Assembly: GCA_015232395.1 (NCBI GenBank)
Contig: JADFZT010000043.1
Span: 1 to 37,547 of the forward strand
Length of the DNA stretch: 37,547 nucleotides
DNA from: Magnetococcales bacterium
Lineage (GTDB): Bacteria; Pseudomonadota; Magnetococcia; Magnetococcales; JADFZT01
Reading direction: 5' to 3'
Shown piece by piece: positions 1 through 34,187 of this stretch; position 1 is the first letter of the stretch; each line of letters starts with the position of its first letter. Position numbers and translations under genes: made by a program. The notes below the pieces were generated by a model. That model was not told the origin of the DNA. It made no database searches and saw only the letters and a list, made by a program, of their open reading frames with translations.

Positions 1-268
1 GGCAATCATCAGCTCCCTGGATCCCCGCCTTCGCGGGGATGACGAGTCAGGGAAGAGTGTCCAATTTTGAGATAGAATTGCTATACAGATGCATCATGGC
101 TGTTCAGCCTGGAACCAAGCCTACGTTTGCATGATCTCTCATGCTGACGCGTGCATGATCGCTTATGGAGAGGGGATGGGGCTGGAAAAAACCTGCCGCA
201 CCCTGGACCCACCCCAATGGGCAAGTCCAGAGCGCGCATCAGCTGGCTGACGACAGGTCTGTTTTGGC
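1..268. other. Intergenic segment at window edge with short repeats
   Basis: No credible gene is seen here; it lies downstream of the minus-strand methyltransferase gene. It holds a strong palindrome at 14-53, annotated separately. It also holds a 9-bp direct repeat, TGCATGATC, at 128-136 and 152-160, spaced 24 bp start to start. The short open frames that cross this stretch are antisense to the methyltransferase and show no family features. The left boundary is cut by the window, so a gene beginning to the left cannot be excluded. Confidence 0.5.
14..53. repeat. Palindromic stem-loop, dispersed-repeat-like
   Basis: A perfect 8-bp inverted repeat, ATCCCCGC (21-28) and GCGGGGAT (33-40), encloses a CTTC loop. 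An outer 6-bp pair, TCCCTG (14-19) and CAGGGA (48-53), flanks it. The core with GATGACG after it looks like the short palindromic units scattered between genes in many proteobacterial genomes. Whether it is repeated elsewhere in this genome cannot be seen from one window. It is not followed by a T-run, so a simple intrinsic terminator is less likely. Confidence 0.55.
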
Positions 269-28522: not shown

Positions 28523-28553
28523 TCCAACTCCCGAATAACCGAAGGTGGTCGAC

Positions 28554-29240
28554 GTGGAACAAAAGCCCGTAAGCATCCCCAAAAAGAAAATTTTGATCGC
28601 CGATGACGACCGGGATTTCCGCGTCAACCTGGCTGAATTTCTACGCCGGGAGGGGTTTACCATCAGCCAGGCGGGGACGGGGGAGGAGGCGGTAGCCACC
28701 TTAGCCAAGGAAAAACACGATGTATTGCTCCTGGATATGGTGATGCCGGGCATGGCGGGGATTGCGGCCATCGGCAAAATCCGGGAGACCAACAAGACCA
28801 TCAAAATCATCCTGGTCACCGCTTTTGCCACGGTGGATACGGCGGTGGAAGCGATGAAAAAAGGGGCGGACGACTACATTCAAAAACCCTTTCGCACCGA
28901 TGAACTATTGGCCATCATCCGCCGGGCTCTGGAAGAGGCCCGTTTTGAGCTGGACATCAAACATTTAAATCTCGACTTTACCTTAAGCTCCCTGGCCAAT
29001 CCCATTCGCCGCCGTACCATCCAGTTGATCGGCAGTGGCGAGGCCAACCGACTGATGGAAATCGCCAACAAACTCGCCGCCCCGGACCACACCAAGGTGC
29101 TCTTTCATCTTAAAAAATTGAAAGAGTCCGAAATCATCGCCCAGCGGGAAGACAAAAGCTACGAACTCACCCAGAGTGGCCAGCTGATGCATGAATTTTT
29201 GCGTATTTTAGCCCAGCACATCTCGGTTTTTACTGGTTGA
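28554..29240 (+). CDS. Response regulator with ArsR-like winged-helix output
   Basis: A 228-aa protein. The N-terminal receiver (about 10-125) has the DDD acidic cluster, phospho-acceptor Asp in VLLLDMVMPG, Thr in LVTAF and Lys in IQKPF. The C-terminal 85 residues (LANPIRRRTIQLIG ... HTKVLFHLKKLKESEIIAQREDKSYELTQSG) read like an ArsR-type winged helix, with a helix-turn-helix and a beta wing ending in the ELTQSG strand. ArsR-like outputs on receivers are uncommon; OmpR, NarL and NtrC types dominate. No ATG is present: GTG at 28554 follows AAGGTGG, and GTG at 28545 is an alternative. It probably shares an operon with the cyclase upstream. Targets unknown. Confidence 0.85.
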   Translation: MEQKPVSIPKKKILIADDDRDFRVNLAEFLRREGFTISQAGTGEEAVATLAKEKHDVLLLDMVMPGMAGIAAIGKIRETNKTIKIILVTAFATVDTAVEAMKKGADDYIQKPFRTDELLAIIRRALEEARFELDIKHLNLDFTLSSLANPIRRRTIQLIGSGEANRLMEIANKLAAPDHTKVLFHLKKLKESEIIAQREDKSYELTQSGQLMHEFLRILAQHISVFTG

Positions 29241-29457
29241 TTCTTCTAAAACCCCACGACTGATCCCTCTCACGCACACCTCTGATTTTCATCAATAACT
29301 CAATGGACTCTTCCTGGCTCGCCTTGAGCTGCTTTTAGGTTTGAAGCAAAACGCCCTTCCATCCAAAGCACCTTTACCACGCTACAAGTTTTTCCCTTAT
29401 TCCAACACCAAAATCCACACCTAAACACTGCTCACTCCACAAGATGACCCCCTTCCA

Positions 29458-29507
29458 ACCCTCCCCCTGATCCCCTTTCAGGCAGGGTGTATTCGGATTG
29501 GTCCGAA
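29458..29507 (+). other. Two adjacent stem-loops in the intergenic region
   Basis: The first is a composite stem: ACCCT (29458-29462) with AGGGT (29484-29488), inside which CCTGA (29466-29470) pairs with TCAGG (29478-29482). The second begins three bases later: TTCGGA (29492-29497), loop TTGG, TCCGAA (29502-29507), a perfect 6-bp stem. No T-run follows, so termination is not the obvious role. They could be part of a small RNA or of the STAS1 leader. Confidence 0.3.
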
Positions 29508-29543
29508 ATCTCTTCCAGCCAAAGGCCTCTTTCTCCCCAAGCG

Positions 29544-29560
29544 TGTGAAACCACTTCACA
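29544..29560. promoter_or_regulatory. Inverted repeat TGTGAA-N5-TTCACA, candidate operator copy 1
   Basis: TGTGAAACCACTTCACA is a perfect 6-bp inverted repeat with a 5-bp centre, about 265 bp upstream of STAS1. A second site with the same arms lies at 30420. It resembles a Crp-type site (TGTGA and TCACA half-sites), but the distance between them is 7 rather than 6 bp. The dimeric regulator is unknown; the Crp/Fnr protein at 1340 is one candidate. Confidence 0.5.
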
Positions 29561-29824
29561 AAGTTATCAGATAGATGGTGGGAATGTGAACGATGCAAAC
29601 GATATATTTATGCAAAATTTCAACATGTTACACGTGTTTTCCACAGAATTCGCTCTACTTTGAGCGGAAAACATTAATCACCAATGTGAACCACTTTTCA
29701 ATTTATTTTACGGCTTGGAAGGAGCCAGAATACCAGCCAACACTCAAAAGCAGGGCTTCACCCCTCTGCTGAGGGTTTAGAGAAAGTGCATTTGACAAGA
29801 GTTAGGCTTAATGGGGAGGAAAAA

Positions 29825-30178
29825 ATGACCATTGCCACCGATGTCCAGGGACGGGAAGTCACTATCCGGGTTTCTGGAAAGTTCAATTTTGCACTGCACA
29901 AGAAATTCAGAGAGGCCTATCGCCATAACCTGCCGGGAGATATCTATCGAATTGACATGGCACGTGTCGATTATATAGATAGCTCCGCCCTTGGCATGCT
30001 GCTTCTGCTGCGGGAGCATGCCGGAGGGGATGGCGCCCATGTCAGCATCACCAACTGCAACCCATCCGTAAAAAAAATCCTGGAAGTGGCTGGGTTTCAA
30101 AAGCTCTTTCCTATTATTCCCTATGAGGATGCACCCACCGATCCCCCTTCTGACCTGACTCCAAACGGTCAAATTTAA
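29825..30178 (+). CDS. STAS-domain protein 1 (anti-anti-sigma factor type)
   Basis: A 117-aa single-domain STAS protein of the SpoIIAA/RsbV type. The pattern is typical: VTIRVSGKFNFALHKKFREAY, then IDMARVDYIDSSALGMLLLLREHAGG, then a C-terminal helix VKKILEVAGFQKLFPI. In SpoIIAA-like proteins the second serine of the DSS motif is phosphorylated by an anti-sigma kinase; that serine is present here. The frame extends to 29786, but GGGGAGGA just before the ATG at 29825 fixes the start. No anti-sigma kinase or PP2C phosphatase gene is in the window. It is a close paralogue of STAS2 at 31866. Confidence 0.9.
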   Translation: MTIATDVQGREVTIRVSGKFNFALHKKFREAYRHNLPGDIYRIDMARVDYIDSSALGMLLLLREHAGGDGAHVSITNCNPSVKKILEVAGFQKLFPIIPYEDAPTDPPSDLTPNGQI

Positions 30179-30288
30179 GAAGGTCAAGCATCAAACGGCC
30201 AAAACTCGGACATATTTCCGGGGCATCCAACTCTACCGACATGGCTGCATGGTTCAAGCGTGAAGGGATGAATCTGGACAAACGGATG

Positions 30289-30316
30289 ACAACTCCCACA
30301 AAGGGGTGGGAGTTGT
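30289..30316 (+). terminator. Probable intrinsic terminator of STAS1
   Basis: A perfect 11-bp stem, ACAACTCCCAC (30289-30299) with GTGGGAGTTGT (30306-30316), closes a 6-base loop AAAGGG. It is followed by TATTTCCC, a weak U-tract. It lies 111 bp beyond the STAS1 stop. Stem strength supports termination; the poor U-tract leaves room for another structured role. Confidence 0.55.
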
Positions 30317-30419
30317 TATTTCCCAAAGATCTCTCAACAGGCTTTTTGGGAAAAAAACCGGCTCCTTGGATAAATGGTGAAAAAAACGGAAAGGGCTCTC
30401 TTCCAGGATCATTGGGGCA

Positions 30420-30436
30420 TGTGAAACTTGTTCACA
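30420..30436. promoter_or_regulatory. Inverted repeat TGTGAA-N5-TTCACA, candidate operator copy 2
   Basis: TGTGAAACTTGTTCACA matches the site at 29544 in 14 of 17 positions, with identical arms. It lies about 300 bp upstream of the TPR gene. Two such sites 876 bp apart, each in front of a gene of the same small regulatory set, suggest a shared regulator. Confidence 0.5.
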
Positions 30437-30733
30437 TCCACCAAGATCAAATTTTGACGATGAACCTTGGATTAACCAAAACAAACCTATTGATTATCAA
30501 ATAGTTGCAAAAACAAAACAGACTGATACCAGGATACACACCAAGAAAATAAAAGAGGGATGTGAAGGAGTCTTCAATATTTTTTGTTGAGCCCACCTGC
30601 CACACTATAGACAACTGAATAATCGATGAAACAAATTGATCCAAGGACTCCAAACCAGACATAAAAAATGGTCGGATAAATTGATTAAGTTATTGAAAAT
30701 ATTATGAAAAAATAAAATTTAAAGGAGATGGCC

Positions 30734-31168
30734 ATGAACGTAACAGGTCTGATTACAGCCGGAAAACGTTTCATGAATCTGGCGGAATACGACAAGAGTG
30801 AGATCTATTTCACCACCGCCATCAAAACCTGCGAGATTGTGGGTTGGCCGGAGGCTGTCGCGGAGGCTGCCGACCTCTATCACAAATCACCAGAGGACAT
30901 CCGCAAAATTCAGTCACTTGTTTATTATTTCCGGGGCAGTGCCCGCCTGAACCGAGCATCCCTGGATGAGGCTCTGATGGATCTGGAACATGCTTTGGAA
31001 TTGGATCCCAAGCTATGGCCGGCCAAAGTAGAAAAAAGCCTCTGCCGATTGCTTCTGAGTCGACAACCACTGTCGGCAGGATACATCCAGCGTGGCAAAT
31101 CTATGGAGGCCTTCCACAGTGAGAAAAAGAAAGGCCTCAAAAAAGCGATGGAATCTTGTGCTGCCTGA
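30734..31168 (+). CDS. Small TPR-like protein
   Basis: A 144-aa, all-helical, soluble protein. Two or three tetratricopeptide-like helix pairs are visible: FMNLAEYDKSEIYFTTAIKTCE (about 14-35) and YFRGSARLNRASLDEALMDLEHALELDP (about 66-93), then LWPAKVEKSLCRLLLSRQ. TPR proteins act as interaction scaffolds. AAAGGAG (30721-30727) touches an ATG at 30728 but is well spaced for the ATG at 30734, so the latter is chosen. It lies 51 bp upstream of the stand-alone receiver and probably shares its transcript. Its partner may be one of the adjacent receivers or STAS proteins; function unknown. Confidence 0.75.
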   Translation: MNVTGLITAGKRFMNLAEYDKSEIYFTTAIKTCEIVGWPEAVAEAADLYHKSPEDIRKIQSLVYYFRGSARLNRASLDEALMDLEHALELDPKLWPAKVEKSLCRLLLSRQPLSAGYIQRGKSMEAFHSEKKKGLKKAMESCAA

Positions 31169-31219
31169 TTCAAACAGTTCGAGAGGGGCCTTTTCCATCT
31201 GTACCGGGGGGAGAAAGGG

Positions 31220-31666
31220 ATGAAAAAAATCCTGATTGCAGACGATGACGGCGTTTTCGGTAGCAACCTTTCCGAAATCCTGCGCCGGGAAGGGTTCCTG
31301 GTTCAAAGTGTGGGTTCCACCATGGACGCAATCCACATCACCACCCAAGAATCTTTTGACATCATTCTTCTGGATATGTTGATGCCAGGAGCAGCTCGGG
31401 AAAAAACCACAACCTGCTTACGGCGAGTCAACAGAGCGGTCAAAATTATTTCCATGACTGTCTGCCCGGCCAGCTCTTACACCTACTCGACCATTAAGCA
31501 CCAGTCCGACGCTTGTATCACCAAGCCGTTTGGTATCCACAACCTTTTGGGAGCCATCGATGATGTGGGCCAGCAGTCTGAAAACAACATGAACCGATGG
31601 CCCCATGACCCAAGCCACAAAATGATCAGAGAGATGCCAACGACCGTAACAGCAGCATGCAGCTAG
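31220..31666 (+). CDS. Stand-alone receiver protein (truncated paralogue)
   Basis: A 148-aa receiver: KKILIADDDGVFGSNLSEILRREGF, phospho-acceptor Asp in IILLDMLMPG, Thr in ISMTV and Lys in ITKPF. The first half is strikingly like the receiver of the ArsR-type regulator at 28554 (both KKILIADDD and LRREGF). The winged helix is missing, however, and the protein ends in a basic, unrelated tail of about 35 residues. The middle (GAAREKTTTCLRRVNRAVK) is diverged. GGGGGGAGAAAGGG precedes the ATG. It may be a phosphate sink or a protein-binding switch for TPR or STAS2. Confidence 0.85.
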   Translation: MKKILIADDDGVFGSNLSEILRREGFLVQSVGSTMDAIHITTQESFDIILLDMLMPGAAREKTTTCLRRVNRAVKIISMTVCPASSYTYSTIKHQSDACITKPFGIHNLLGAIDDVGQQSENNMNRWPHDPSHKMIREMPTTVTAACS

Positions 31667-31865
31667 GGGAAAAGCCCCACAGACCATGTAGATCAAAAGC
31701 GGGATCAGAACCAACGGTATAAAAAATACAAACCACAGAATTGGTTTGCAAAAGACCAAAAAAACAAAAAGTTACAAAAGTTTGACTGAAGTGGCTCCGG
31801 GGTGCCTTTTAAATGCCCCGTCTAAAGAAAAAAGCAGTGCGCTGGATCTATACAGGAGAAAAAGA

Positions 31866-32162
31866 ATGTCCGTCCAAATGATCAATAATGGCAGTGAAGT
31901 AGTTATCGGTGTTTCCGGAAAATTTGATTTTTCGGTGCATAAGGATTTCCGGGAAGCCTATCGGTTCCATCAGCCCACTGGGCGCTATGTTGTGGACTTT
32001 ACCCGGGTGGAACGCATCGATTCAGCCGCCTTGGGGATGCTTCTCCTGCTTCGGGATCATGCCGGAGGGGTGAGCGCCGACATCATCATCCGTAATTGCC
32101 AACCACAAATTCAAAAAATTTTGGAAGTGGCCAATTTTCATAAACTGTTTCAGATCCACTGA
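31866..32162 (+). CDS. STAS-domain protein 2, phospho-Ser replaced by Ala
   Basis: A 98-aa STAS protein, a close paralogue of STAS1: VVIGVSGKFDFSVHKDFREAY, VERIDSAALGMLLLLRDHAGG, IQKILEVANFHKLFQIH. The motif reads DSAALG where STAS1 has DSSALG. The position equivalent to the phosphorylated Ser58 of SpoIIAA is therefore Ala, and the protein could be permanently in the unphosphorylated, binding-competent form. An in-frame extension to 31746 has no fold; AGGAG before the ATG at 31866 fixes the start. The 199 bp upstream hold only short imperfect hairpins. No terminator is evident before the stem-loop array downstream. Confidence 0.9.
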   Translation: MSVQMINNGSEVVIGVSGKFDFSVHKDFREAYRFHQPTGRYVVDFTRVERIDSAALGMLLLLRDHAGGVSADIIIRNCQPQIQKILEVANFHKLFQIH

Positions 32163-32301
32163 CCCACGGATATAGAGAAGAATAGTTGGAGGTTTGGCAA
32201 GCTCTATCAAGGCTTGCGCCACAGGCCACAGGTTAAAGAAACAAGGATCACTGGAAGCGTTTCAGCCGGGGGGGGCTTGCAACGATTCCAGGGAGGGGGG
32301 T

Positions 32302-32843
32302 GGGACCGGTTTCAAGAATCATTTTGGGGCCGGTCCCAGCTTATTGGATTGTGTTGGTTGACGGGTGGTTGCCAAAGGGATTTGGCTTGAGCACGGGATC
32401 GACTTTGGGCTTGGGGGCCCGGGTCGATCCCGACTCAATGACTGCACGGATCGCAGGGGGTGGCTGAATGGATTCAGCCAGAGGGGGGATGGAAGCGGTA
32501 TTGGGCTTGGAAGCCGGGTACCGACACCTTCTTGATAGCTGCACGAACCGCAAGGAGGGTGGCTGGATGGATTCAGCCAGAGAGGGTGGGACCGGTTTTG
32601 GGCTTGGGGGCCTGTGACTGGTTCCAAAGCAGCCGGGATAAAATGGGCTTTAGGTCTGGGAGCCCCAAGCCGCTTTATCCCAAAAACCCTCAAACGGGGG
32701 ATAAAACGGCTTGGAGCTTGGACGCTTCAAGCTGGTTTTAGCAAGAGGGGGGAATGGCGTCCACATAGGGTCTGGGAACCCGAAGGACGCCAGCAGAGGG
32801 GGGCGGGACCGGTTACAGGCTTGGGGGCCTACAACCGGTCCCG
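32302..32843 (+). ncRNA. Array of stem-loops with conserved hexaloops, putative structured RNA
   Basis: Eight large hairpins follow one another: 32302-32337, 32394-32432, 32496-32523, 32588-32625, 32635-32681, 32700-32742, 32755-32792 and 32804-32843. Stems differ in sequence. The last seven share a hexaloop: UUGGGG, UUGGAA, UUGGGG, CUGGGA, UUGGAC, CUGGGA, UUGGGG. Many pairs are G-U when read as plus-strand RNA (four in the first, five in the fourth), which would be A-C mismatches on the other strand. Small hairpins with GGA in the loop sit between (32371-32386, 32462-32479, 32561-32578). A linker AGAGGGGGG recurs at 32480, 32744 and 32795. Promoter and ends are not visible. A CsrB/RsmZ-like sponge is one reading; DNA-level function is another. 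Confidence 0.55.
32441..32612 (+). repeat. Direct repeat of about 75 bp within the stem-loop array
   Basis: Copy A (32441-32515) and copy B (32538-32612) share the same order: CTGCACG element, purine run, GGCTG(A/G)ATGGATTCAGCC hairpin, purine linker, and the left arm and loop of a large hairpin. They are roughly 80 percent alike with small compensating indels. The right arms after the loop then diverge, each complementary to its own left arm. Confidence 0.75.
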
Positions 32844-33023
32844 GAACAACTCCCCCAAACGCTCTCTTCCACGCCTTTCCACTCACGCCAAATCATCACA
32901 TCTCATCTGTTTGAGCCAAGCTGCCACACGCTCTCCGCCGCTTCAGCTTCACTCCACCGGAAACCAAATGTCCCCACAGCCAAATGGATTCACTCAATCC
33001 AACCAAACATGATCCCACCCGAC

Positions 33024-34184
33024 TCAATAACCCACCAGCTCCACATATCCCCGACCATCCACCGCTTTTCCCAAATGCTTGCCCGAAAAATAAACCGCCC
33101 CTTCCCAATAACGCACCGCAGCGCCATCCAGCTCCTGATCCTTCAAGAGGGGAGTCACCGTCAGATCCAATCCTGAAGATAATTCCCGAAGCTGCCAACC
33201 CGAGGGGTAGCGGGCTCCACTCTTTGGGCTTATCCAGTGATCCAGGGGAGTGATGTGGAAGGTGCTGGCTGCAATGGGGGTTCGCTGGCCCTGGGGATCA
33301 AACCAACCCCCGGCGCTGTGGGGATCGTTTTCACCATCCTTTCTGCGCATCCGGTAATACATCAAATCCCAGCCATTATTCAGCTGTAGGGAAAACCAGT
33401 CCCAACCGCTCTGTTCGGGTTCCAGAGCGCTGGTGGACCACTCCCGATCAAGCCAGGAAAGCCCGGCAACCGAATGGATCTGCCCCTCCAGCTGAATGGT
33501 ACCTGTCGTTGCCAGGCGGGGCAGGGAATAGTAGTAGGAAGCGTTGCCGGGTTTGGCCCCTTTTTGACTAAACCCAGCCTCCCCCTGAAGCATCACGGGC
33601 TTGATGGCAACCATGGTCAGATCAATGGCCATCTCTTGCTCTTGGGCTTTGAGATGTAAATCGGGTATATCCGCTGGCCCCCCTCGGGAAGTGAGCTGCC
33701 AATCCTCCAACCATATTTTCAGGGGAGGCCCCGATTCAGCCCCCGCCAACCCCAAAGCCAGACGCCCGAAACGTTGAAAATGGATGAATTGATTCCCCAC
33801 TTCATCGGTCAAAGCCAAATGGCCCATATGGATGCCGTTGGCTGCCCATTTGGAGAGGCGCTCCTCTTCACCCGGTGGCGCCAGCCCAATGCGAAAGAGG
33901 GTCCACTGAAAACCAAACCGCTGTTTTGTTTCGGTTGATTCCAGATTGCCGGTCACATACCACCATTCGTGTTTATAGTCTGGATGGGGGCCGTGATCTT
34001 CGGGAAAGCAAAAGGGGTGTGGGGCCATCACCTGAACAAAACCATCGGTCTGGCCGGAACCCAGCACCTGGGAAACCGACATCTCCTCTGAAACTTCCCC
34101 CTCAGAAGTATCCAGCCACCACAGGCCGATCATCGCCAGGGTCAAAACCAGCAGCAGCCAACCGCCCTGTCGAAAACGAAACAT
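33024..34184 (-). CDS. attH: AttH-like lipocalin-type secreted/anchored protein
   Basis: A 386-aa protein with an N-terminal membrane or signal segment (about 9-24) and a two-part AttH/CrtC-like lipocalin domain. Hallmarks are HPDYKHEWWYVTGNLES (EWWY at 73-76), RFGFQWTLFRIGL, and the later WLDREWSTSALEPEQSGWDWFSLQLNNGWDLMYYRMRR. It probably handles a hydrophobic or carotenoid/lipid-like compound at the membrane; no reaction is established for AttH. The TTG at 34187 is in frame, but the ATG at 34184 follows GGGAGG. It starts just before or within the end of the permease gene and is the last gene of an AttE-H type operon. Confidence 0.88.
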   Translation of the reverse strand: MFRFRQGGWLLLVLTLAMIGLWWLDTSEGEVSEEMSVSQVLGSGQTDGFVQVMAPHPFCFPEDHGPHPDYKHEWWYVTGNLESTETKQRFGFQWTLFRIGLAPPGEEERLSKWAANGIHMGHLALTDEVGNQFIHFQRFGRLALGLAGAESGPPLKIWLEDWQLTSRGGPADIPDLHLKAQEQEMAIDLTMVAIKPVMLQGEAGFSQKGAKPGNASYYYSLPRLATTGTIQLEGQIHSVAGLSWLDREWSTSALEPEQSGWDWFSLQLNNGWDLMYYRMRRKDGENDPHSAGGWFDPQGQRTPIAASTFHITPLDHWISPKSGARYPSGWQLRELSSGLDLTVTPLLKDQELDGAAVRYWEGAVYFSGKHLGKAVDGRGYVELVGY

Positions 34185-34187
34185 CAA

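Follow-up and report, generated by a model that had tools for sequence, protein, structure and literature searches.

Several described systems place one short motif, or one palindrome, on many hairpins. CsrB, CsrC and RsmX/Y/Z are decoy RNAs in which many hairpins with differing stems present the same short motif, frequently in loops of six bases; in CsrB the motif is CAGGA(U/A/C)G, repeated in loops or in single strands (PMC7652899), and CANGGANG hexaloops are found in CsrA decoys (PMC4894983). CsrA ligands selected by SELEX have loops of mostly six bases with an invariant GGA, mostly on four or fewer contiguous pairs (PMC7652899), and the presence of FliW is anti-correlated with regulators of CsrA-decoy RNAs (PMC7652899). 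The alpha-r14/cuckoo small RNAs (NfeR1, CcsR) combine hypervariable stems with a conserved unpaired anti-Shine-Dalgarno loop motif (PMC7143759).

The locus described here lies on contig JADFZT010000043.1 of a Magnetococcales bacterium, all 37,547 nt of which are called the window. On its plus strand ten stem-loops (32301-32843) stand between the gene for STAS2 and a lipocalin gene, namely seven long hairpins (H1, H3 and H5-H9), two short ones (H2 and H4) and H0. Bit scores are those of R2, a corrected covariance model whose scores for the seven long hairpins range from 29 to 47 bits.

31866-32162, plus strand: STAS-domain protein STAS2, directly upstream of the array (Pfam STAS_2, 1.6e-13)
32251-32291, plus strand: weak extra hairpin with a G-rich loop (R2 11.3 bits with filters off; fold)
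32290-32300, plus strand: purine-rich spacer preceding H0 (sequence)
32301-32338, plus strand: H0, 17-bp stem with four G-U pairs, AUCA loop (fold; repeat family D3)
32394-32432, plus strand: H1, hexaloop UUGGGG (R2 40.1 bits; hand-registered stem)
32461-32480, plus strand: H2, short hairpin, loop AUGGAU (fold, stem register)
32480-32488, plus strand: spacer AGAGGGGGG (sequence)
32496-32523, plus strand: H3, hexaloop UUGGAA (R2 33.9 bits)
32560-32579, plus strand: H4, short hairpin, loop AUGGAU (repeat family D5)
32587-32626, plus strand: H5, hexaloop UUGGGG (R2 45.0 bits)
32635-32681, plus strand: H6, hexaloop CUGGGA, two internal loops (R2 39.2 bits)
32702-32740, plus strand: H7, hexaloop UUGGAC (R2 34.0 bits)
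32744-32752, plus strand: spacer AGAGGGGGG (sequence)
32755-32792, plus strand: H8, hexaloop CUGGGA (R2 29.1 bits)
32795-32803, plus strand: spacer AGAGGGGGG (sequence)
32804-32843, plus strand: H9, hexaloop UUGGGG (R2 47.2 bits)
33024-34187, minus strand: CrtC-type lipocalin-domain protein, convergent neighbour (Pfam CrtC, 6.4e-58)

The hexaloop NUGGRN is common to the seven long and the two short hairpins, and the heads of the long hairpins are a GGC/GCC stem or a paired variant of it. An initial sequence-only reading had described H0 and seven further stem-loops with a shared loop often closed by GGC/GCC. All eight were found where it had placed them and the shared loop holds, with the closing exact in four of the seven long hairpins; the count itself was two short, as H2 (32461-32480) and H4 (32560-32579) had been overlooked. 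H0 does carry the four G-U pairs and the AUCA loop reported for it, on a stem of 17 bp (32301-32338), and its outer stem resembles H5 and H9. The hairpin at 32251-32291 is possibly a degenerate, worn first member of the array. The spacer AGAGGGGGG or similar purine spacers precede H0, H3, H5, H8 and H9, and AGAGGG occurs four times in the array region against 0.7 expected. The spacer word AGAGGGGG was rejected as a genome-wide repeat, since its 569 sites are fewer than the 840 of its reversed control.

The array is strongly structured. The plus strand of 32160-32870 has a folding energy of -333 kcal/mol (z = -10.4, none of 20 shuffles as good), and the minus strand one of -284 kcal/mol (z = -8.1, 20 shuffles). 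This comparison of strands, suggested with the sequence-only reading, gives the advantage to the plus strand for the whole region, but for 32391-32846 alone the minus strand folds as strongly (z -7.2 plus, -7.9 minus), and with values this close folding energy alone does not choose the strand. Hairpin density was compared with a 1.58-Mb sample of the same genome, made up of 80 stretches, each no longer than 20 kb. The array has seven hairpins scoring at least 10 per 600 nt, and the sample has at most 3; with a cut-off score of 8 the array has nine, and two other sampled stretches have 9 and 10, which from their sequences look like repetitive, coding repeats. The array is a real, strongly structured element that has so far been seen once.

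The statement that no named family has this layout was too strong, as both the CsrB/RsmZ decoys and the alpha-r14/cuckoo RNAs are built in this way, with other loop motifs. The kind is known, and the loop motif together with the long stems is matched by neither. Compared with CsrB and RsmZ, the array lacks the in-frame GGA of ANGGAN in five of nine loops, and the stems of its long hairpins have 10-17 pairs, with internal loops. GGA is absent from H1, H5 and H9 (UUGGGG) and shifted in H6 and H8; H3 and H7 have the GGA only, and H2 and H4 fit ANGGAN in full. That the array nevertheless is a CsrA decoy of the CsrB/RsmZ type with deviant loops seems to us quite improbable. The hexaloops do have GG at positions 3-4, as in CANGGANG, the AUGGAU loops of H2 and H4 match ANGGAN, ANGGA occurs 10 times against 5.5 expected from shuffles, and the genome encodes one CsrA (PF02599, 3.7e-26) with an intact VHREEI segment; yet three loops lack GGA and two have it out of place, AGGA shows no enrichment (3 found, 5.0 expected), most stems far exceed the four or fewer contiguous pairs that SELEX ligands usually have, and two genes encode FliW, an alternative CsrA antagonist. 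In Rfam, no match reaches the gathering score, CsrA-decoy families being absent also among the sub-threshold matches up to E 10. With the alpha-r14/cuckoo RNAs the array shares hypervariable paired stems and a conserved loop; its plus-strand loops are NUGGRN, not anti-Shine-Dalgarno, and CCUCC is present in no array hexaloop on either strand.

The composition of the stems bears on the strand. With stems registered by hand there are 115 Watson-Crick pairs, 18 G-U pairs, five A-C oppositions (all at internal loops or adjoining them) and five other oppositions, and the excess of G-U over A-C (two-sided p = 0.011) favours an RNA read from the plus strand. This is support, not proof, because strand-biased cytosine deamination would give the same pattern. 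The proposed plus-strand orientation is favoured accordingly by the counts, although the claim that G-U pairs occur on that strand only was overstated, the five A-C oppositions corresponding to minus-strand G-U pairs. A C-rich small RNA from the minus strand, pairing with G-rich ribosome-binding sites in the cuckoo/alpha-r14 manner, would account for minus-strand loops such as CCCCAA, for the spacers CCCCCCUCU and for the minus-strand z of -8.1, and 32255-32317 on that strand weakly resembles CcsR1 (13.9 bits). We regard such an RNA as very doubtful, however, with the CcsR1 score far below the threshold of 65.3 bits, CCUCC missing from every hexaloop, and the G-U bias pointing to the plus strand.

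By their sequences, the copies are tandem duplicates. H1, H3, H5 and H9 form one repeat family, the first three spaced 96 and 97 nt; a 30-nt segment at H2 recurs at H4 with 93% identity, and H6 is 88% identical to H8 across 17 nt and 92% identical to H7 across 12 nt. Across the seven long hairpins, both partners have changed at 9 of 16 pair positions, 77.5% of cells are paired against 69.7% in shuffles (0/500), and the covariation score is 0.357 against 0.240 (2/500), a score that drops when the register is slid and is therefore register-specific. Between H1 and H5 there are four double and three single stem changes with none breaking; between H1 and H9 there are four double changes, one single change and one that breaks pairing. 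All copy pairs together have 82 double and 32 single changes that keep pairing and 85 that break it, the more frequent breaks in other copy pairs arising partly because bulges spoil the register. Loops have a mean identity of 72%, and the two arms 56% and 48%. All of these comparisons are between duplicates inside one array; alignment A5, which gave higher covariation and includes minus-strand matches, was set aside.

Changed stems with kept pairing had been put forward as the mark of selection on structure. The pairing is indeed kept among the copies, but this does not distinguish selection from template-switch correction, and for covariation in relatives, also proposed, no relatives were found to compare. 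Palindrome correction by template switching is the main rival: the array would be a DNA-level product without RNA function, a quasi-palindrome duplicated in tandem, whose arms would have stayed complementary because template switching corrected them during replication. The tandem units of 96-97 nt are consistent with it, as are duplicates confined to a single site with homologues not found in the searches, and the tandem copies of a dispersed palindrome in genome G040, of the same order, indicate that palindrome amplification occurs in the order. We nonetheless consider it rather unlikely, as correction gives Watson-Crick arms, yet there are 18 G-U pairs against five A-C oppositions, and the loops are better kept than the stems, the opposite of what drift with arm correction predicts.

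STAS2 is the final gene of a response-regulator/TPR/STAS cluster, and the array takes up most of the convergent intergenic space (32163-33023) behind it. The cluster (window 28545-32162) encodes two response regulators, one TPR protein and two STAS proteins with 61% mutual identity; the genome contains 14 STAS matches in all. Among the neighbours searched, Pfam identified no RNA-binding protein, and three open frames across the array match no family of Pfam or PHROG. A consensus scan found no sigma-70-like promoter on the plus strand from STAS2 to the end of the array and no T-run terminator in 31600-33100 on that strand, which fits read-through from STAS2; no promoter or terminator was found that ties the array to any transcript. 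Tandem intrinsic terminators likewise line up several hairpins behind a gene, but they end in T-runs and the array has none; with no hairpin plus T-run in 31600-33100 on the plus strand, the array was rejected as an intrinsic terminator set. Elsewhere in the same genome (locus L232, 4466-4710), four hairpins, three of them followed by T-runs, stand after a cytochrome c-like gene and look like ordinary tandem T-run terminators. We find it improbable that the array is simply a 3'-UTR or convergent-gene spacer structure, shielding message ends or stopping read-through from STAS2 or the lipocalin gene, with loop identity due to ancestry. The share of 32163-33023 that it fills, and the lack of a T-run terminator there for either gene, are in keeping with such a role, but the array is without T-runs in a genome that has ordinary T-run terminators, such as those at L232, and a barrier has no need of a kept hexaloop.

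Searches for relatives returned no second array. Besides R2 we used R1, a model whose pairing is one column off (as a slide control showed), so that its matches count as sequence-like searches only. In its own genome the array has no second copy by blastn (E <= 0.001), R1 or R2, and in the 1.58-Mb sample R2 scores at best 21.2 bits. Covariance models found no array in 48 genomes of the order or in 398 genomes of the phylum (about 350 of them beyond the order); these whole-genome searches scored only the best first-look candidates (137-150, and 16 in the 398-genome search), so that weak or diverged arrays could escape. Blastn was negative against 40 related genomes and, as the only method used there, against phages and plasmids. 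Viral contigs scanned for a pattern had five exact matches, and a two-hexaloop-head pattern matched in 29 of the 398 genomes, those listed being mostly unrelated-looking or the G040 dispersed palindrome. With R2, no row of matches was seen at any foreign locus searched. The strongest foreign match, a single hairpin in genome G070 (34.5 bits), lies inside a long open frame, as does an own-genome match on contig C83; a match on C36 lies in a stretch of repeats that reads as coding. Highly structured regions that adjoin or lie close to STAS genes in relatives (L059, L055, L050 and L060) have different sequences and are mostly large palindromes. One of them, a near-perfect palindrome of about 115 nt that begins AAAAGAGGGGGTCTGGGGGATTCGTCCCCCAGGG and adjoins a STAS gene (L059 1901-2015, genome G047), is perhaps a miniature transposon. 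As far as databases reach, then, no homologous arrays were found, an outcome that the sequence-only reading had named beforehand as speaking against it. The genome is the sole member of its family among the 48 of its order, so that absence in relatives is weak evidence for a recent origin.

REP/BIME-type repeats, including the tandem copies in G040, are also tandem G-rich palindromes, but they are dispersed with near-identical stems, whereas the array is in one place only with different stems; with no second copy by blastn or covariance model it was rejected as a dispersed palindrome of this type. The G040 palindrome, GGGGTCTGGGGACCGTCACGGTCCCCAG, is found at L314 600-1100 (G040:C14) and on other contigs, and has four tandem copies with a 48-nt unit. 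Dispersed repeats are present in the array-bearing genome as well. The commonest in the genome sample is the palindrome TGGATCCCCGCCTTCGCGGGGATGACGAGTCAGGG, which differs from the array and also occurs where the window starts; the sequence at window 20-50, ggatccccgccttcgcggggatgac, is a copy of a dispersed palindrome that at least 28 of the 80 sampled stretches contain. A further repeat, TGTCCAATTTT...AATTGCTAT, occurs at window 58-85 and at L003 (G000:C132), and TGTCCAATTTT has 23 occurrences in the sample against 1 for its reversed control.

Our tentative preference is for a lineage-specific plus-strand RNA, which may be the 3' portion of the STAS2 message and would present many copies of its loop to a partner. 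A single hairpin with a GGC-[YUGGRN]-GCC head may have been duplicated in tandem, its stems drifting while required to remain paired and its hexaloop retained, and the resulting RNA would display about nine copies of one loop. Such an RNA would most likely be a multivalent platform or decoy for a loop-reading partner, probably an RNA-binding protein; transcription, partner and decoy role all go beyond structure and strand bias, and we infer them. The more specific proposal, that this is an undescribed class of multi-hairpin RNA whose YUGGRN copies titrate or assemble a loop-reading protein, possibly linked to STAS/response-regulator signalling, is one we offer as speculative and on balance unlikely. 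A literature search found no small-RNA papers on this bacterial order. If transcribed, the array would yield an RNA that resembles a decoy or scaffold but follows neither the known CsrA design nor the anti-Shine-Dalgarno one. The tandem copies preserve a record of compensatory changes that recurred at a single locus, so that selection on RNA structure can be tested within one genome.
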